From Streptomyces sp. NBC_01335 (lineage in GTDB: Bacteria > Actinomycetota > Actinomycetes > Streptomycetales > Streptomycetaceae), in the NCBI RefSeq assembly GCF_035953295.1, contig NZ_CP108370.1:4865001-4929000 (forward strand): DNA of 64,000 bases. Direction: 5' to 3'. Under the pieces are notes generated by a model. It was not told the DNA's origin, made no database searches, and was given only the letters and a program-made list of their open reading frames with translations. Shown piece after piece: positions 54,374 to 62,517 of this stretch; positions within the stretch are counted from its first letter, which is position 1, and the number at the start of each line of letters is the position of its first letter. The translations under genes and the position numbers were made by a program.

Positions 54374-56173
54374 TCAGGGCCCGGCCGGGGCCAGCTCGGC
54401 TTCCATGGCGGCCCGCAGCCGGAGGGTGGAGACCAGGCGCTGGAAGGCCTCCGACCAGTAGCCGCCCGCCCCCGGTGAGGCGTCCTCGCGTTCGTCCTCC
54501 GGGGTGGTGAGCACCTCCAGCCGGTCGGCCTCGCCGGGGTCGAGGCAGCGCTCGGCCAGGCCCATGACTCCGCTGAAGCTCCAGGGGTAACTGCCCGCCT
54601 CTCGGGCGATGTCGAGCGCGTCGACGACCGCGCGCCCGAGCGGCGCCGCCCAGGGCACGGCGCACACGCCCAGCAGCTGGAACGCGTCGGACAGGCCGTG
54701 GGCCGCTATGAAACCGGCCGCCCATGCGGCGCGTTCCTCCCGGGGCAGGGTCGCGAGGAGCTTGGACCGTTCGGCCGGAGAGTCGGTCCCGGTGGTGTCC
54801 GCCGGGGGAGCGGTGGGGGTGCCGAGCAGCGCCCGCGCCCACTCCTCGTCCCGCTGCCGTACGGCGGCACGGCACCAGGCGGCGTGCAGGTCGGCGGCCC
54901 AGTCGTCGGCCACCGGCAGTCGCACCAACTCCCGCGCCGTACGTCCGCCGAGTCGGGCGGGCCAGGTGGCGAGCGGGGTCGATTCGACCAACTGGCCGAA
55001 CCACCACGACCGTTCGCCCTTCCCGGCGGGCGGTACCGGGATCACCCCGTCCCGCTGCATTCCGGCGTCGCACTCGTGCGGTGCCTCTATGAACAGGGAC
55101 GGCCCGCCGGGCGCGGCGACGGCGGGCTGCCCACCGCCAACCCTGCGGTCCAGGCCGACGCAGGAGACGGCGCGGGCGGCCATCCGCCGGCCCAACGCGG
55201 TGTCGGGCAGGGCGGAGAGGAGCTCGGCTGCGGTGGCGCGGACGTTGCGGCTGCGGTCGCCGAGCGCTTCCTCCAGGAAGTCCTCGTCCGCCCCGGAGAG
55301 CTTGGCGCGGAGCGTGTCCAGGAACATCAGCCGGTCCTCCGCGCGCTCGCCGGACCAGGTCCCGGCGAGCAGGTCCCGGGCCGCGTCCGGATCGCGGAGC
55401 CGTACGGCACTCAGCAGTGCGATCCGCTCCGTGAACAGCCCCTCCTCCCACAGTTCGCGCACCGCTTCCCGGTCGGCACCGCCGCCCGGCCCTCCCTGGA
55501 GGGCGGCCTGCGGAGCGCCGTCGCGCAGGGCGAACCGCCAGTCCGTGTTCAGACCCGCCAGCCAACGGCCGCGCGGACCGGCGAAGGCCAGTGCGTGCGG
55601 CCGCAGATCGGTACGCGCCCGCGCCGCGTCCAGCAGCGGCGGGAGCAACGCCGCGGGGGCGCGGTAGCCGTGGCGGTTGGCGGCGGCCAGCCACTGCGGG
55701 ATCAGCTCGGTCAGATCGGGGGCCGTGCCCCGCCTGCCGCCGTGCGGGCCGACCGCCCGGTCCGCGAGGAGCTGCGCGAGTCTGCGGCGGGCCGCCGGGG
55801 GCAACGGCGGGCGGGGGTCCTCGGGCGCCCGGTCGGGGAACGCCCCGGCCGTGGCGGGGCGCAGTCCCGCCCGGCGGCGTACGGCGTGCACCGCGGCCAC
55901 GTCCAGCAGCGCGGTCGGTCCGCCGGACCCGCCGTCCGGGGCCTGCGCCGGGCGGCGGTCCGTACCGAGGAGGGCGCGGGTGACCAACTCGTCCCACTCC
56001 TCGCCCCGCCGCACCGACGGGGAGCCGACCGGGTGCGGGGTGGCTGGGCGGTCGGTGCCGGTGGTGTGGTTCGAGGCGTCGGTGGGATCCGGGGCGTGCG
56101 GGTGGACCGAGGTATGCGGGTGGTCGAAGTCCGGGCAGCCGGGTCCGGACGGGGGCGGGTTCGTGGCGGTCAT
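54374..56173 (-). CDS. DUF5691 family protein
   Basis: A 599-residue protein matching what I know as DUF5691: W-D-E-L-V-T-R-A-L-L-G-T-D-R-R-P near 60-75, V-H-A-V-R-R-R-A-G-L-R-P, P-Q-W-L-A-A-A-N-R-H-G-Y-R-A-P and F-A-G-P-R-G-R-W-L. It looks all-helical, with HEAT-like pairs around 240-320 (R-D-P-D-A-A-R-D-L-L...S-R-N-V-R-A-T-A-A-E-L-L). ATG 56173 follows GGAGGTG. It is downstream of the SWIM-family gene on the same strand and opposite a MoxR/DUF5682/VWA operon; such genes travel together in actinobacteria. The biochemical role is unknown. Confidence 0.82.
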   Translation of the reverse strand: MTATNPPPSGPGCPDFDHPHTSVHPHAPDPTDASNHTTGTDRPATPHPVGSPSVRRGEEWDELVTRALLGTDRRPAQAPDGGSGGPTALLDVAAVHAVRRRAGLRPATAGAFPDRAPEDPRPPLPPAARRRLAQLLADRAVGPHGGRRGTAPDLTELIPQWLAAANRHGYRAPAALLPPLLDAARARTDLRPHALAFAGPRGRWLAGLNTDWRFALRDGAPQAALQGGPGGGADREAVRELWEEGLFTERIALLSAVRLRDPDAARDLLAGTWSGERAEDRLMFLDTLRAKLSGADEDFLEEALGDRSRNVRATAAELLSALPDTALGRRMAARAVSCVGLDRRVGGGQPAVAAPGGPSLFIEAPHECDAGMQRDGVIPVPPAGKGERSWWFGQLVESTPLATWPARLGGRTARELVRLPVADDWAADLHAAWCRAAVRQRDEEWARALLGTPTAPPADTTGTDSPAERSKLLATLPREERAAWAAGFIAAHGLSDAFQLLGVCAVPWAAPLGRAVVDALDIAREAGSYPWSFSGVMGLAERCLDPGEADRLEVLTTPEDEREDASPGAGGYWSEAFQRLVSTLRLRAAMEAELAPAGP

Positions 56174-56265: not shown

Positions 56266-57300
56266 TCAGGCCAGGGCGACGGTCCCGCCCGGGCCGTCGC
56301 CGTCGCCTTCGCCGGGGGCCCAGGCCGTCAGCGGGACGAAGCCGCGCGGGCCCAGCTCGCCGAAGACCGTGACCGGGCCGCCGCCCGAGAGCGCGGCCAG
56401 CCGCCAGAGCCCCGGCCGGGAGCGGGGGTCCCCCGCCACCGGCAGGGCGCTCCCGGTCTCCCCGTCGGCGAGCTGCCAGCGGCCGGCGGCGGGGACGGGT
56501 ATCACCGCGCCCAGCACCACCGGATGCCGCTCCGCCCAGGGGTCCTCGCCCAGCGCGCGGCCGTATCCGGCGAGGGCCTCGGCGGGGGACACCCCCGGCG
56601 GGGGTGTCCGAGCGGAATCCGGGGTGGCGAACACCGCCCCCAGCTCGGCCCGTCGGCCCGCACCCGGATGCGGCGTCAACTCCGCGTCCAGGACCGTGCC
56701 CACCGGGAGGGACAGCTCCGGGGCGCGACCCCCCGGGCCGTAGGAGAGCAGCACCGCGGTGCGGCCCGACCCCTTCCCGTACATCCAGATACGTCGGGTG
56801 ACGAGCTTGCCGTCCGAGGTGTCGTACCGGGCGAGCGCCTGCCAGCGGTCGCGCACCGGCGGGCCGTCCGGCGCCGAGGGCAGACCCACCCGGGTGCGGA
56901 CCGTCGCCAGCAGCGGGGCCGGCAGTCGATCGCGGCCCAGCCAGGCGGTGTTGAGCAGGTGCAGCAGCCCGCACTCCTCCAGCATCCGCACCGGCCACCC
57001 CGGACCGGACGCGGCCAGGGAGCCCAACTCGCGCACCCGCGCGGCCAGTCCGGGGGCCTGGGCGTCGACCATCCGGGCGGCGGTCTCCTCCCAGTGGTCA
57101 TGGCCGGACTGCCCGGACACCGCGAGGCCGGTGCGCAGGAGATCGGCGAGGCGCTCCTCCAACTCCCGCGCACCGTCGGTGATCCGGGCGGCCCTCCGCT
57201 CGGCACGCCTGCGCGCCGCCTCGGCGTCGGCCGGGACGGCAGGGGTGCGCCCCGCCGGTTCGGCGGTCCGCGCGGACTCTCCCTCATGAGACAGCAGCAT
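56266..57300 (-). CDS. SWIM-family protein lacking the SWIM zinc finger
   Basis: 344 residues. From A-E-A-A-R-R-R-A-E-R-R-A-A-R-I onward it matches the C-terminal part of SWIM zinc-finger proteins that accompany DUF5691 (E-E-T-A-A-R-M-V-D-A-Q-A-P-G-L-A-A-R-V-R-E-L-G, G-P-G-W-P-V-R-M-L-E-E-C). The usual N-terminal ~100 residues with the C-x-C...C-x-H finger are absent. ATG 57300 is the only sensible start: the predicted promoter's -10 (57313-57308, minus strand) places the transcript start at about 57301, so the mRNA would be leaderless. Loss of the DNA/zinc module is therefore real unless the assembly is wrong. Confidence 0.75.
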   Translation of the reverse strand: MLLSHEGESARTAEPAGRTPAVPADAEAARRRAERRAARITDGARELEERLADLLRTGLAVSGQSGHDHWEETAARMVDAQAPGLAARVRELGSLAASGPGWPVRMLEECGLLHLLNTAWLGRDRLPAPLLATVRTRVGLPSAPDGPPVRDRWQALARYDTSDGKLVTRRIWMYGKGSGRTAVLLSYGPGGRAPELSLPVGTVLDAELTPHPGAGRRAELGAVFATPDSARTPPPGVSPAEALAGYGRALGEDPWAERHPVVLGAVIPVPAAGRWQLADGETGSALPVAGDPRSRPGLWRLAALSGGGPVTVFGELGPRGFVPLTAWAPGEGDGDGPGGTVALA

Positions 57301-57307
57301 GGCAACG

Positions 57308-57390
57308 ACGGTAGGACCCCCCACTGACAATCGCCCTGACCTGCGGTGACGGTGAGTGAGGGATCGATTGTCAGTGGGGTGGTGCACGGT
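57308..57390. promoter_or_regulatory. Twin divergent RecA-NDp/PafBC-type promoters
   Basis: A 15-bp perfect inverted repeat (57319-57333 and 57365-57379, 31 bp apart) holds TTGTCAGTG on each strand pointing outward. Leftward it continues N8-TACCGT, an exact match to the DNA-damage promoter form TTGTCRGTG-N8-TAnnnT; rightward it continues N8-CACGGT, one base off. Starts would be about 57301 (minus) and 57397 (plus). This form is recognised by PafBC in mycobacteria. Confidence 0.75.
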
Positions 57391-57428
57391 GGTGACACAC
57401 ATCGGACCGAGCGATCTGGAGGGGGACC

Positions 57429-58646
57429 ATGACCGTGTACGAACGAGCCGGGGAATCCGCGGCCACCGGGCGCACGCCCGCGTCGGACGGCATGCCGGAC
57501 GGCGGAAGGCGGGGCGCCGACGTGCCCGCGAGGGCGCTGCCCGACGGTGCGCTGCCCGACGCCGGGGCGCGGGCGCTGCGGCCGCACGCCGAGGACGCCT
57601 TCGCCGACGAACTCAAGGCGCTGGCCGCCGCCGACGACCGCCCCAGGCCTGCCCGTTGGCGCCTCTCTCCGTGGGCCGTCGCCACCTATCTGCTCGGCGG
57701 CGCACTCCCGGACGGCACGGTGATCACCCCCAAGTACGTGGGCCCGCGCAGGCTCGTCGAGGTCGCCGTGTCCACGCTCGCCACCGACCGCGCCCTGCTG
57801 CTCCTCGGGGTGCCCGGGACCGCCAAGACCTGGGTCTCCGAACACCTCGCGGCGGCCGTCAGCGGTGACTCGACACTCCTCGTCCAGGGCACCGCGGGCA
57901 CGCCCGAGGAAGCGATCCGGTACGGCTGGAACTACGCGCAGTTGCTCACCCACGGCCCGAGCCGGGCCGCCCTGGTGCCCGGCCCGGTGATGCGCGCCAT
58001 GGCGGAGGGGCTGACCGCCCGGGTGGAGGAGCTGACCCGCATCCCGGCCGACGTGCAGGACTCGTTGATCACGGTCCTCTCGGAGAAGACCCTGCCCGTC
58101 CCCGAGCTGGGCCAGGAGGTCCAGGCGGTCCAGGGGTTCAACCTCATCGCCACCGCGAACGACCGCGACCGGGGCGTCAACGAGCTGTCCAGCGCGCTCC
58201 GTCGCCGCTTCAACACCGTCGTGCTGCCGCTCCCGGCGACGCCCGAGGACGAGGTGGACATCGTCTCGCGCCGCGTCGACCAGCTGGGCCGCGCCCTCGA
58301 TCTGCCGGCCGCCCCCGAGGGGATGGCCGAGATCCGGCGCGTCGTCACCGTCTTCCGGGAACTCCGCGACGGCGTCACCACGGACGGCCGCACCCGGGTC
58401 AAGTCCCCCTCGGGCACGCTCTCCACCGCCGAGGCGATCTCCGTCGTCACCCACGGCCTGGCGCTCGCCGCCCACTTCGGCGACGGCACCCTGCGCCCGG
58501 GCGACGTCGCCGCCGGAATCCTCGGCGCGGTCGTCCGGGACCCGGCGGGCGACCGTGCCGTCTGGCAGGAGTATCTGGAGACGGTCGTCCGCGAGCGGGA
58601 CGGCTGGAAGGACTTCTACCGCGCCTGCCGCGAGGTCGCGCCATGA
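57429..58646 (+). CDS. MoxR-family AAA+ ATPase
   Basis: A 405-residue AAA+ protein. Walker A is G-V-P-G-T-A-K-T (127-134), the Walker B equivalent has E200-E201 in A-R-V-E-E-L-T-R-I-P, sensor 1 is in I-A-T-A-N-D-R-D-R-G, and Arg residues A-L-R-R-R-F follow. The first ~55 residues are low complexity. MoxR ATPases pair with VWA proteins to remodel or insert cofactors into targets, and a VWA gene is two genes downstream. ATG 57429 follows GGAGGGGG. The stop overlaps the next start (ATGA), so the three genes form one translational unit. Confidence 0.9.
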   Translation: MTVYERAGESAATGRTPASDGMPDGGRRGADVPARALPDGALPDAGARALRPHAEDAFADELKALAAADDRPRPARWRLSPWAVATYLLGGALPDGTVITPKYVGPRRLVEVAVSTLATDRALLLLGVPGTAKTWVSEHLAAAVSGDSTLLVQGTAGTPEEAIRYGWNYAQLLTHGPSRAALVPGPVMRAMAEGLTARVEELTRIPADVQDSLITVLSEKTLPVPELGQEVQAVQGFNLIATANDRDRGVNELSSALRRRFNTVVLPLPATPEDEVDIVSRRVDQLGRALDLPAAPEGMAEIRRVVTVFRELRDGVTTDGRTRVKSPSGTLSTAEAISVVTHGLALAAHFGDGTLRPGDVAAGILGAVVRDPAGDRAVWQEYLETVVRERDGWKDFYRACREVAP

Positions 58647-61231
58647 CCCCGACGCCGGTACCCCCCACGCCCGCGACCCGGGCGCCGGTACCCCCCACGC
58701 CCGCAACCGCGGTGCGCGCAACCGCGGTGCCCGCAGCCGCGGCGCCCCCACCACCGGAGCGCACGACTCCGGCGGACGGGGCTGCCGGGCCGCTGCTGCT
58801 GGGCGTGCGGCACCACGGGCCGGGGTCGGCGCGGGCGGTGCTGGCCGCGCTGGAGGCGGTGGGGCCGCGGGCCGTGCTGGTCGAAGGGCCGCCGGAGGCC
58901 GACGCGTTGCTCGCCTTCGCCGCCGACCCGGAGATGCGGCCCCCGGTGGCGCTGCTCGCGCACGCCGAGGACGATCCGGGGCTGGCGTCGTTCTGGCCGA
59001 TGGCGGAGTTCTCACCGGAGTGGGTCGCGATCCGCTGGGCGCTCGCGCACGGTGCGGCCGTCCGCTTCGTCGACCTGCCCGCCGCCCACTCGCTGGCGCT
59101 CGCGGCGGCGGCGCAGGGCGAAGGGGAGTGGGAGGCCTCGCCCGCCCCTCCCGACCCGATCGCGCTGCTGGCCGAAGCCGCCGGATACGACGACCCCGAG
59201 CGGTGGTGGGAGGACGTGGTCGAACACCGGTCCTCGGCACCCGGCGCCGATCCCGTCGCCCCGTTCACCGCGCTGGCCGAGGCGATGGCAGCCCTGCGCG
59301 AGACGTACGGCGACGGCGGGCACCCCCGCGACGCCGTACGCGAGGCGTTCATGCGCATCCGGCTCCGGGCGGCGCGGAAGGAGTTCGGCGACGAGGTCGC
59401 GGTCGTCTGCGGCGCCTGGCACGTACCCGCCCTCGCCGCCCGCACGACCCTCACCGCCGACCGCGCGCTGGTGAAGGGACTGCCCAAGGTGAAGACCGGC
59501 ATGACCTGGGTGCCCTGGACGCACCGGCGGCTGGCCCGGCGCAGCGGATACGGCGCCGGCATCGAGGCCCCCGGCTGGTACGCCCACCTCTTCCACGCCC
59601 CGGACCGGCCCGTCGAGCGCTGGATGACGAAGGTCGCGGGGCTGCTGCGCGACGAGGACCGGTTCGTCTCCCCGGCCCACGTCATCGAGGCGGTACGGCT
59701 CGCCGAGACGCTCGCCGCCCTGCGCGGCCGCCCGCTCGCCGGACTCGCCGAGGCCACCGACGCGGTCCGGGCCGTTCTGTGCGACGGCTCCGACGTGCCC
59801 CTCGCGCTCGTCCACGACGGACTCGTCGTCGGTACCGCGCTCGGTGAAGTCCCCGACGGCGCACCGGCCGTGCCACTCCAGCGGGACCTGACCCGGCAGC
59901 AGCGCACCCTGCGCCTGAAGCCGGAGCCGGCCGACCGGGAGGTGGAGCTCGACCTCCGCCGGGAGAACGACGCGGCGAGGAGCCTGCTGCTGCACCGGTT
60001 GCGGCTCCTCGCCGTGGACTGGGGCGAGCCGGTGGCGGGCCGGGGCAGCACCGGTACCTTCCGGGAGACCTGGCGGCTGCGCTGGGAGCCGGAGCTCTCG
60101 GTCCGGATCGCGGAGGCGGGGACCTGGGGCACCACCGTGCTCACCGCCGCCACCGCCAAGGCCGAGTCCCAGGCTCTTCTGGCGACCACCCTCGGGGAGG
60201 TCACCGCCCTTGCCGAACACTGCCTCCTCGCCGGTCTGCCCGGCGCGCTGCCCGTGGTGATGCGGGCCCTCGCGGACCGGGCCGCGCTCGACGCGGACGT
60301 CTCCCATCTCGCCGAGGCCCTGCCCGCGTTGGCCCGCTCGCTGCGGTACGGGGACGTACGCGGCACGGACACCGCCGCCCTCGGCGAGGTGGCCGCCGGA
60401 CTGGCGGCGCGCGTCTGCGTCGGGCTGCCCGCCGCCTGCACGGGCCTGGACGCCGACGGTGCGGAGGCGATGCGCCGCGCGGTGGACGAGGTGCACGGCG
60501 CGATCGCCCTCCTCGCACCTCCGGACGGACCCGGCCACGAACTGCGGGACCGCTGGCCGGCGGTGCTCGGCAAGCTATCGGCCCGGGACACGGTCGCCGG
60601 GGTGGTACGGGGCCGCGCCACCCGGCTGCTGCTGGACGAGGGCCGGCTCGGCGACGGCGAGGCGGCGCGGCTCATGGGCCTCGCCCTGTCGCCCGGTACC
60701 CCGCCCCCGCACGCCGCCGCGTGGATCGACGGCTTCCTCGGGGGAGCCTCCGGCGGCGGGATGCTCCTCGTGCACGACGAGCGCCTGTTCGCCCTCGTGG
60801 ACGGCTGGCTGACCGGCGTATCCGACGACGCCTTCACGGACGTGCTGCCGCTGCTCCGCCGTACCTTCTCCGCGTACGAACCGGGGGTCCGGCGCACCCT
60901 GGGGGAGCTGGCCCGCCGGGGCCCGGCCGATGCCGGGCGGGCCCGGGGACCCGGCACCGGGGCGGCGCTGCCCGGCTTCGGCCCGGAGCTGGACGGGCCC
61001 CGCGCCGACGCCGTACTCCCGCTGCTCCGCCTCGTCCTCGGCCCCGAACGCGTACCGGCGCACTTCGCGCACCCGGAGCACCCGGAGCACCCGGAGCGTC
61101 CGGCGCACCCGGAGCGCGACCCCGACCCGGCTCCGACCGGTCGATCCCGACCGAACCCGACCCGGCCCCGGTCGGACGATCCCGACCTGACCCGACCGGC
61201 CCTCCCGCGTACAGGAGTTGATCGACCGTGA
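58643..61231 (+). CDS. DUF5682 family protein
   Basis: An 862-residue protein of the DUF5682 group, recognised by G-V-R-H-H-G-P-G-S-A-R near residue 54 and V-L-V-E-G-P-P-E-A-D-A-L. The N-terminal part up to about 280 resembles TraB/ChaN-like folds (F-V-D-L-P...V-V-C-G-A-W-H-V-P-A-L). The rest is mostly helical. The first ~45 residues are Pro/Ala/Thr repeats and the C-terminus has an E-H-P-E-H-P-E-R run and a D-P-T-R-like repeat, both low complexity. It is coupled to the ATPase upstream and the VWA gene downstream (GTGA). Function unknown. Confidence 0.85.
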   Translation: MTPTPVPPTPATRAPVPPTPATAVRATAVPAAAAPPPPERTTPADGAAGPLLLGVRHHGPGSARAVLAALEAVGPRAVLVEGPPEADALLAFAADPEMRPPVALLAHAEDDPGLASFWPMAEFSPEWVAIRWALAHGAAVRFVDLPAAHSLALAAAAQGEGEWEASPAPPDPIALLAEAAGYDDPERWWEDVVEHRSSAPGADPVAPFTALAEAMAALRETYGDGGHPRDAVREAFMRIRLRAARKEFGDEVAVVCGAWHVPALAARTTLTADRALVKGLPKVKTGMTWVPWTHRRLARRSGYGAGIEAPGWYAHLFHAPDRPVERWMTKVAGLLRDEDRFVSPAHVIEAVRLAETLAALRGRPLAGLAEATDAVRAVLCDGSDVPLALVHDGLVVGTALGEVPDGAPAVPLQRDLTRQQRTLRLKPEPADREVELDLRRENDAARSLLLHRLRLLAVDWGEPVAGRGSTGTFRETWRLRWEPELSVRIAEAGTWGTTVLTAATAKAESQALLATTLGEVTALAEHCLLAGLPGALPVVMRALADRAALDADVSHLAEALPALARSLRYGDVRGTDTAALGEVAAGLAARVCVGLPAACTGLDADGAEAMRRAVDEVHGAIALLAPPDGPGHELRDRWPAVLGKLSARDTVAGVVRGRATRLLLDEGRLGDGEAARLMGLALSPGTPPPHAAAWIDGFLGGASGGGMLLVHDERLFALVDGWLTGVSDDAFTDVLPLLRRTFSAYEPGVRRTLGELARRGPADAGRARGPGTGAALPGFGPELDGPRADAVLPLLRLVLGPERVPAHFAHPEHPEHPERPAHPERDPDPAPTGRSRPNPTRPRSDDPDLTRPALPRTGVDRP

Positions 61232-62517
61232 CGGAGAAGGTCCCCGCACCAGGGCGGGCCCCGAGAGCCCAACAACCCCGTCCCGCACGGGCATCCGGCG
61301 ACGAGCGGGTCAGGCGGTGGCGGCTGGTGCTGGGTTCCGACAGCGCGGAGTCCACCGGCCACGCACCCGAGGGCCGGGACGCGGCGATGGACCGCACCCT
61401 CACCGCGCTCTACGGCGGCGGGAAGAGCCCTGGCACCCGGACGCCCGGTGAACGCGGGGCCGGGCTCGGTGCGTCCGCTCCCGCCGCCGCCCGCTGGCTC
61501 GGCGACATCCGCACGTACTTCCCCGCCCCGGTCGTCCAGGTCATGCAGCGGGACGCCATCGAGCGGCTCGGCCTCGCCGCCCTGCTGCTGGAACCCGAGA
61601 TGCTCGACGCGGTCGAGGCCGACGTCCACATCGTCGCCACCCTCCTCCAGCTCGGCGGCGCGATGCCGGAGACCACCCGGGAGACGGCCCGCGCCGTGGT
61701 GCGCAAGGTCGTCGCCGACCTGGAGAGGAGACTGGCCGGCCGCACCCGGGCGACCCTCACCGGCGCCCTCGACCGGTCCGCGCGGACCGGCCGCCCGCGC
61801 CACGGCGACATCGACTGGAACCGCACCATCCGCGCCAACCTCAAGCACTGGGTACCGCTCCCCGGCACGGGCGACGCGGTCGGATCAACCGGCTCGGGCG
61901 GCGCGGACCGTGAGGGCGGCGAGCGCGGGGCGGCCGGCGCGGGCACCGTCGTCCCGGAGCGGCTCATCGGTTACGGCCGGGCGGGCCGGGCCGTGCGCAA
62001 GGAGGTCGTCCTCTGCGTCGACCAGTCCGGTTCGATGGCCTCCTCCGTCGTCCACGCGGCCGTCTTCGGGGCGGTCCTCGCCTCGATGCGTTCGCTGGAC
62101 ACCCGGCTGATCGTGTTCGACACCGCCGTCGTGGACCTCACCGACCAGCTGGACGACCCCGTCGACGTGCTCTTCGGTACCCGGCTCGGCGGCGGTACGG
62201 ACATCAACCGGGCCCTCGCCTACTGCCAGGCGCGCCTCACCCGCCCCGCCGACACCGTCGTCGTCCTGATCAGCGACCTCTACGAAGGCGGGATGCGCGA
62301 CGGGATGGTCCAGCGGGTCGCGGCGATGAAGCGGTCCGGAGTGGAGTTCGTGGCCCTGCTCGCGCTCTCGGACGAGGGAGCGCCCGCCTACGACCGGGAC
62401 CGTGCGGCGGCGCTGGCCGCTCTCGGGGTCCCCGCCTTCGCCTGTACCCCGGACCTCTTCCCCGAGGTGATGGCGGCGGCCCTGGAGAAACGCCCCCCGC
62501 CGGTCCCGGAGCGGTGA
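61228..62517 (+). CDS. VWA domain protein partner of the MoxR ATPase
   Basis: A 429-residue protein. The VWA domain starts near 258 with V-V-L-C-V-D265-Q-S267-G-S269-M-A-S, an intact MIDAS metal site; later MIDAS parts are G-G-G-T-D-I-N and V-V-V-L-I-S-D-L-Y-E-G-G. The N-terminal ~235 residues are helical with R-W-R-L-V-L-G at 30-36, where the family's conserved part begins. A Gly/Ser-rich linker separates the halves. GTG 61228 overlaps the upstream stop. MoxR-VWA pairs usually act as substrate-specific chaperones. Confidence 0.88.
   Translation: MTEKVPAPGRAPRAQQPRPARASGDERVRRWRLVLGSDSAESTGHAPEGRDAAMDRTLTALYGGGKSPGTRTPGERGAGLGASAPAAARWLGDIRTYFPAPVVQVMQRDAIERLGLAALLLEPEMLDAVEADVHIVATLLQLGGAMPETTRETARAVVRKVVADLERRLAGRTRATLTGALDRSARTGRPRHGDIDWNRTIRANLKHWVPLPGTGDAVGSTGSGGADREGGERGAAGAGTVVPERLIGYGRAGRAVRKEVVLCVDQSGSMASSVVHAAVFGAVLASMRSLDTRLIVFDTAVVDLTDQLDDPVDVLFGTRLGGGTDINRALAYCQARLTRPADTVVVLISDLYEGGMRDGMVQRVAAMKRSGVEFVALLALSDEGAPAYDRDRAAALAALGVPAFACTPDLFPEVMAAALEKRPPPVPER

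Follow-up and report, generated by a model that had tools for sequence, protein, structure and literature searches.

Two outward-facing promoters of the RecA-NDp kind lie between the arms of a divergent five-gene locus in Streptomyces sp. NBC_01335, and both are real. Judged from sequence and conservation, they are likely to constitute a divergent pair of PafBC-dependent promoters that would be induced by DNA damage and would drive both the SWIM-DUF5691 and the MoxR-DUF5682-VWA arm. The strong conservation of the paired promoters suggests that the five-gene locus is part of the response to damaged DNA. The features are listed below by their position in the window, i.e., the whole stretch of 64,000 nucleotides that was analyzed.

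54374-56173, minus strand: DUF5691 gene, 599 aa (Pfam PF18944, E 4.8e-170)
56266-57300, minus strand: SWIM-family gene, 344 aa; ATG at 57298-57300, 7 nt past the leftward -10; allele without zinc finger and without Pfam match
57308-57330, minus strand: leftward RecA-NDp promoter, TTGTCAGTG (57322-57330), GGGGGTCC, TACCGT (57308-57313); 0 mismatches to TTGTCRGTG-N8-TANNNT
57319-57333, no strand: left arm of the 15-bp inverted repeat, CCCCACTGACAATCG, perfect complement of the right arm
57336-57344, minus strand: accessory element U, GCAGGTCAG on the minus and CTGACCTGC on the plus strand, between both sites
57365-57379, no strand: right arm of the 15-bp inverted repeat, CGATTGTCAGTGGGG, perfect complement of the left arm
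57368-57390, plus strand: rightward RecA-NDp-type promoter with CA-type -10, TTGTCAGTG (57368-57376), GGGTGGTG, CACGGT (57385-57390); 1 mismatch to TTGTCRGTG-N8-TANNNT
57429-58646, plus strand: MoxR-type AAA+ ATPase gene, 405 aa (Pfam AAA_5, E 1.8e-37); purine-rich GGAGGGGG immediately 5' of the ATG
58643-61231, plus strand: DUF5682 gene, 862 aa (Pfam PF18934, E 3.3e-290); overlaps the MoxR gene by 4 bp
61228-62517, plus strand: VWA/CoxE-like gene, 429 aa (Pfam VWA_CoxE, E 4e-60); overlaps the DUF5682 gene by 4 bp

The two promoter sites and their conservation

An earlier note on this DNA had described the two arms as perfect complements, each supplying TTGTCAGTG in outward orientation, with an exact RecA-NDp match on the left and a single deviating base on the right, and this description was borne out. 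Both sites fall within the divergent intergenic region at 57301-57428. When TTGTCRGTG-N8-TANNNT was searched with A at the R position, the window contained two matches at up to two mismatches against 0.35 expected; because 4 of 100 shuffles also reached two, the window by itself is only moderate evidence. Likewise, the window has perfect inverted repeats of 15 bp (with a loop of no more than 80 nt) at three further places, so that a repeat of this length is unremarkable as such. What stands out is its content and its conservation.

Among 101 genomes of the genus, including that of the window, 95 orthologues were found at an identity of at least 79%, and the upstream regions of all 95 were read. 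The six remaining genomes had either a paralogue only (two) or nothing at E ≤ 0.001 (four). The earlier note had made its proposal depend on the motif being kept in orthologous loci, and it is kept: with the pattern.TGTCRGTG-N8-.A...T, in which the first base is free, the leftward site was found in 94/95 and the rightward site also in 94/95 genomes (that of the window included). The two misses are single core substitutions (TTGTCAGAG), one on the left (L113) and one on the right (L154), and conservation of this extent is therefore not due to chance. In a second set of 80 named loci, all from Streptomyces and possibly overlapping in part with the first sample, both sites were present in all 73 loci with upstream DNA. 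As the genomes of the genus are related, these counts represent non-independent events.

In the 93 sites aligned per side, TTGTCAGTG is 96-100% conserved at every position, and conservation drops upstream of it. The leftward -10 is TANNNT in 93/93 sites. The rightward site has the TTGTCAGTG and N8 of the RecA-NDp motif, and the first base of its -10 is C in all 93, making it CANNNT throughout; the CACGGT of the window thus appears to be a conserved CANNNT form and not a decayed TANNNT. Within the genome, 16 one-mismatch sites have C at this position, five of which are leaderless, including dinB with a start at 7 nt. Since CANNNT occurs at dinB and at four other leaderless sites, CACGGT probably functions as a -10 at the rightward site. 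A -10 without the canonical T might nevertheless need another factor, which counts against control by PafBC.

The end of the rightward spacer, TGGTG, and the CA that follows it are 92-100% conserved, the leftward spacer less so. At the rightward site, the stretch 57380-57392 reads TGGTGCA (92-100%), two freer bases and GTGG (83-100%), and is more conserved than its leftward counterpart. This stretch may perhaps be bound by a second protein.

Spacing of the sites and an accessory element

The distance between the two sites ranges from 26 bp to more than 800 bp among species. Both promoters had been proposed to be built from one inverted repeat; the repeat is present, but it is not a single unit, and because the distance varies it is better described as two independent sites. 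The same variability largely refutes a further reading, in which the repeat serves as an operator, or forms a terminator or attenuator hairpin in RNA, and looks like a promoter pair only incidentally. A perfect 15-bp repeat within a divergent intergenic region would suit such a function, but each site keeps its outward -10 across all these distances, and we regard this reading as scarcely credible.

Gaps were shorter than 200 bp in 81 of the 92 regions having both sites, with values of 27-28, 37-39, 48, 50-51, 61-62, 72, 82, 85, 93, 108, 127, 165, and 185 bp. The best period of the unique gap values was 11.3 bp (11.2 bp below 100 bp), and none of 20000 random-integer sets was equally strong over the same period range, although this null takes no account of ancestry. 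A minimum of 32 changes of gap class is needed on a fast and rough tree of 91 SWIM proteins (26 of its 88 inner branches are starred), and the phasing is therefore not simple inheritance. In nine of the ten wide-gap regions inspected, the promoters are separated by a small lipoprotein-like gene (137-175 aa; L073, L076, L077, L081, L089, L091, L097, L101, and L138).

Between the sites lies the accessory element U. The sequence GCAGGTCA was found within one mismatch in 85/92 inter-site regions against 8.0 expected from shuffles, and exactly in 49/92 against 0.2. In 40 placements it precedes the left site by 6-7 bp, and in 33 it precedes the right site by this distance. Switching between the sides requires only three steps on the SWIM tree. 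In the named set, the element was present in 70/73 loci (next to the left site in 32, next to the right site in 26, and elsewhere in 12), and three loci lacked it.

The five genes

The ATG of the SWIM-family gene follows the leftward -10 by 7 nt, and a leaderless mRNA is therefore predicted. In 92/93 genomes, an ATG located 5-9 nt past the leftward -10 opens an open reading frame of at least 150 aa. The label "SWIM-like" given by the earlier note holds for the family, the orthologue in L072 matching Pfam SWIM (PF04434), but not for a zinc finger in the protein of the window: the CxC...CxH finger is present in 87/92 readable SWIM alleles, and the allele of the window is among the five without it (the others being L091, L099, L131, and L156). 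This allele lacks the finger and retains the promoter. The VWA gene is followed by a gene that was recognized by eye as the beta subunit of succinyl-CoA synthetase.

Distribution of the motif in the genome and the genus

Exact sites number 12 in the 8.36-Mb genome, where the reversed pattern has none; with up to one mismatch allowed, the counts are 68 and 4. All 61 genus genomes searched, including the one analyzed here, carry 11-44 exact sites each, adding up to 1487 against 6 for the reversed pattern. The first open reading frame begins 6-8 nt past the -10 at 25/68 sites of the genome compared with 2.6% of random positions. The other 43/68 sites lack this leaderless arrangement, and among those that have it, several stand before genes with no known role in repair; both observations count against the PafBC reading.

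Within the genome, the motif is common to recA and DNA-repair genes. Sites precede recA, dnaX, and ogt (recognized by eye) as well as dinB, rarA (RarA/MgsA), uvrB, dnaB, xseB (the small subunit of exonuclease VII), and genes for a PD-(D/E)XK nuclease, an AlkZ-like glycosylase, and an Exo_endo_phos protein (all by Pfam; the last is XthA by eye). Among the recognized genes, the site is exact only at recA, dnaX, and a macrodomain gene and has one mismatch at all others. The Ogt fragment of 52 aa scored slightly below the Pfam cut-off, and the macrodomain fragment had no Pfam match. The macrodomain-like reading frame, which lies behind an exact site (L012, 1501-1523), comprises only 78 aa and is apparently cut short. 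A second divergent pair of exact sites (L008/L009, G000:C1:5608853-5609056), 159 bp apart from first base to first base, is located between an ABC-exporter-like gene and a 291-aa gene of no assigned function.

Candidate activator and published expression data

Six WYL-domain matches were found in the genome, two of which are adjacent PafB and PafC genes. Their products match 7p5x, the PafBC transcription complex of M. smegmatis (E 4.6e-58 for one of its chains and 3.3e-54 for its PafC), and both also match 6sj9 (PafBC). The four further WYL-domain matches leave room for a reader other than PafBC, e.g., a different WYL protein or some unknown factor with GCAGGTCA as a further binding site. This would agree with the distribution of the accessory sequences: within 70 nt upstream of the 66 other sites of the genome, GCAGGTCA occurs exactly at only two (L186 and L192) and with one mismatch at eleven, it was not found 6-7 bp from the sites of a paralogous locus described below, and the rightward spacer TGGTG-CA was seen, by eye, at 0/66 other sites. 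Against it, TTGTCAGTG-N8-TANNNT is the known RecA-NDp/PafBC layout and both PafB and PafC are encoded, which makes a different reader quite unlikely.

Single-stranded DNA is the signal that activates PafBC, which redirects the housekeeping polymerase (PMC11804915), and the RecA-NDp gene SCO6735 of S. coelicolor is reported to rise 5-fold after UV (PMC5087735). According to a study of S. venezuelae LexA, an initial search suggested that conservation of the PafBC motif of M. smegmatis does not extend to this species (PMC9380542). This statement counts against PafBC as the activator; the enrichment of the motif in 61/61 genus genomes bears on it.

The genes SCO4803-SCO4805 of S. coelicolor are probably the MoxR, DUF5682, and VWA genes, an assignment made by synteny and gene counting and not by sequence match. 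They lie ahead of SCO4808, a succinyl-CoA synthetase subunit (PMC8981147), with SCO4806 being a secreted protein (PMC8120823). In the six named loci followed from the VWA to the succinyl-CoA synthetase gene, one (L312) has a secreted-protein-like and a small open reading frame in between, and five have none by the criterion used. Upon depletion of TopA, sco4804 and adjacent genes are upregulated eightfold. The activity of the topA promoter falls when sco4804 is lost, and SCO4804 is reported as an activator of this promoter (PMC8120823). The authors attribute the induction to supercoiling, which counts against a role of PafBC, and the terms "SWIM" and "DNA damage" are absent from the main text of that paper (PMC8120823).

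According to this alternative, the promoters respond to DNA supercoiling itself, and topA is regulated by the DUF5682 protein (by synteny SCO4804), a role that has been proposed in S. coelicolor. Both the eightfold induction and the effect of sco4804 on topA are in its favor. However, TopA depletion also raises recA, recX, dinP, dnaE2, uvrA, and lexA and therefore triggers a DNA-damage response too (PMC6637917). Moreover, the promoter sequence is of the RecA-NDp type common to repair genes, and a direct response to supercoiling seems unlikely. Overproduction of TopA raises most of the genes named as well, which counts against the PafBC reading (PMC6637917). Provided that the locus is correctly mapped to S. 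coelicolor by synteny, the RNA-seq data on TopA depletion fit induction of the locus and point the same way as the promoter motif (PMC8120823, PMC6637917).

As TopA depletion induces lexA and presumed LexA-controlled genes (PMC6637917), membership of the locus in the LexA/SOS regulon was also considered. Between 57201 and 57500, there is no good match to GAAC-N4-GTTC: a single sequence is within two mismatches (57405, GACCGAGCGATC) and none is better. Nothing in the same interval came within five mismatches of a 16-mer LexA box. LexA control of the locus is thus highly improbable.

Paralogous and distant loci

The genome contains a paralogous locus with a 172-aa gene, whose cysteines were judged by eye to be arranged as in SWIM proteins, together with VWA and MoxR genes and a distant DUF5682; an exact site lies upstream of it. 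Altogether 22 paralogous loci were read, i.e., this one, one other, and twenty chosen among the listed matches, and a.TGTCAGTG site was located upstream of the 172-aa-type SWIM-like gene in 22/22. Its first base is T in 20/22, and the -10 is TANNNT in 21/22 and CATGCT in one.

Beyond the genus, 29 loci were analyzed (20 of 52 non-genus matches and nine others), and the SWIM start was readable in 26 of them. The six loci from other families in which the complete set of five was detected (L166, L168, L169, L172, L174, and L175) all have these genes in collinear order with SWIM first. A site with at most two mismatches lies 5-9 nt before the in-frame SWIM start in 8/26 loci against 0.01 expected from mononucleotide shuffles. 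The strict leaderless criterion was failed by the other 18/26, which counts against the PafBC reading; near matches that fail the frame or distance rule are exact in L335 and have one mismatch in L338 and L166 and two in L174 and L175, while the remaining non-genus loci have three mismatches or nothing. A third locus type (L062-L066, L176, and L180) carries DUF5682 within a long open reading frame of about 1170-1340 aa, which in L176 and L180 has a VWA domain near its end.

A wider account, about which we are almost evenly divided and which is offered tentatively, is that SWIM-DUF5691-MoxR-DUF5682-VWA is an old actinobacterial DNA-damage machine that was once a collinear operon behind one PafBC promoter. 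The SWIM-DUF5691 half would have been inverted in Streptomyces, each half keeping or gaining its own PafBC site; the sites, held on a fixed helix face around the shared GCAGGTCA, would allow the halves to be switched on together, and the paralogous SWIM/VWA/MoxR locus would have joined the regulon.

Proposed mechanism and relation to known systems

For the locus as it stands, we infer PafBC binding, induction by damage, co-expression, and joint action of the five proteins. DNA damage would generate single-stranded DNA and thereby activate PafBC, and the housekeeping RNA polymerase would then be diverted by PafBC to the two TTGTCAGTG sites. The leftward output would be a leaderless SWIM-DUF5691 mRNA and the rightward output a leadered MoxR-DUF5682-VWA mRNA, and with both arms on, all five parts of one machine would be made together. 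As the most likely, though tentative, mode of action, the MoxR ATPase and its VWA partner might remodel or load DUF5682, and the SWIM and DUF5691 proteins might provide nucleic-acid or scaffold contacts, serving damage tolerance.

The RecA-NDp promoter reportedly includes that of S. rimosus recA and a motif of M. tuberculosis. The promoters described here resemble the RecA-NDp/PafBC promoters of actinobacteria in TTGTCAGTG, N8, and -10, in the leaderless distance of the leftward start codon, and in being shared with recA and repair genes. They differ in that two outward sites are phased along the helix and flank a single accessory element, in the invariant CANNNT of the rightward -10, and in their target, an uncharacterized five-gene locus. 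The locus resembles SCO4803-SCO4805 of S. coelicolor in its probable gene identity and its position ahead of a succinyl-CoA synthetase gene, but induction there is explained by supercoiling (PMC8120823).

With the vWA-MoxR-VMAP ternary conflict systems (PMC10910872) it shares a MoxR ATPase and a VWA protein encoded with a third protein; unlike in those systems, the third protein is DUF5682. No VMAP-type effector-associated domains were detected by Pfam in the five proteins, no PADLOC model matched the locus at E ≤ 0.01, and a fold search with DUF5682 gave no match at E ≤ 0.001. The only MoxR subfamily model reported was bpMoxR, to which the MoxR of the window scored 21.2 bits against a Pfam cut-off of 27. 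The yehLMPQ genes of E. coli encode MoxR, DUF5682, VWA, and SWIM proteins and are similar to the locus in content; DUF5682 was found in an E. coli control genome. To our knowledge, yehLMPQ differs in lacking DUF5691, and E. coli has no PafBC.

Control by PafBC would offer an alternative view of the published work on SCO4804 and topA. It also bears on the open question of a PafBC-type response in Streptomyces, where the motif is strongly enriched in every genus genome searched and, in the single genome examined for this, stands ahead of repair genes. A divergent layout with helical phasing would add a detail to PafBC promoters that we have not met in the literature consulted on them. If true, an AAA+/VWA system of unassigned function would take part in how the main antibiotic-producing genus responds to DNA damage.
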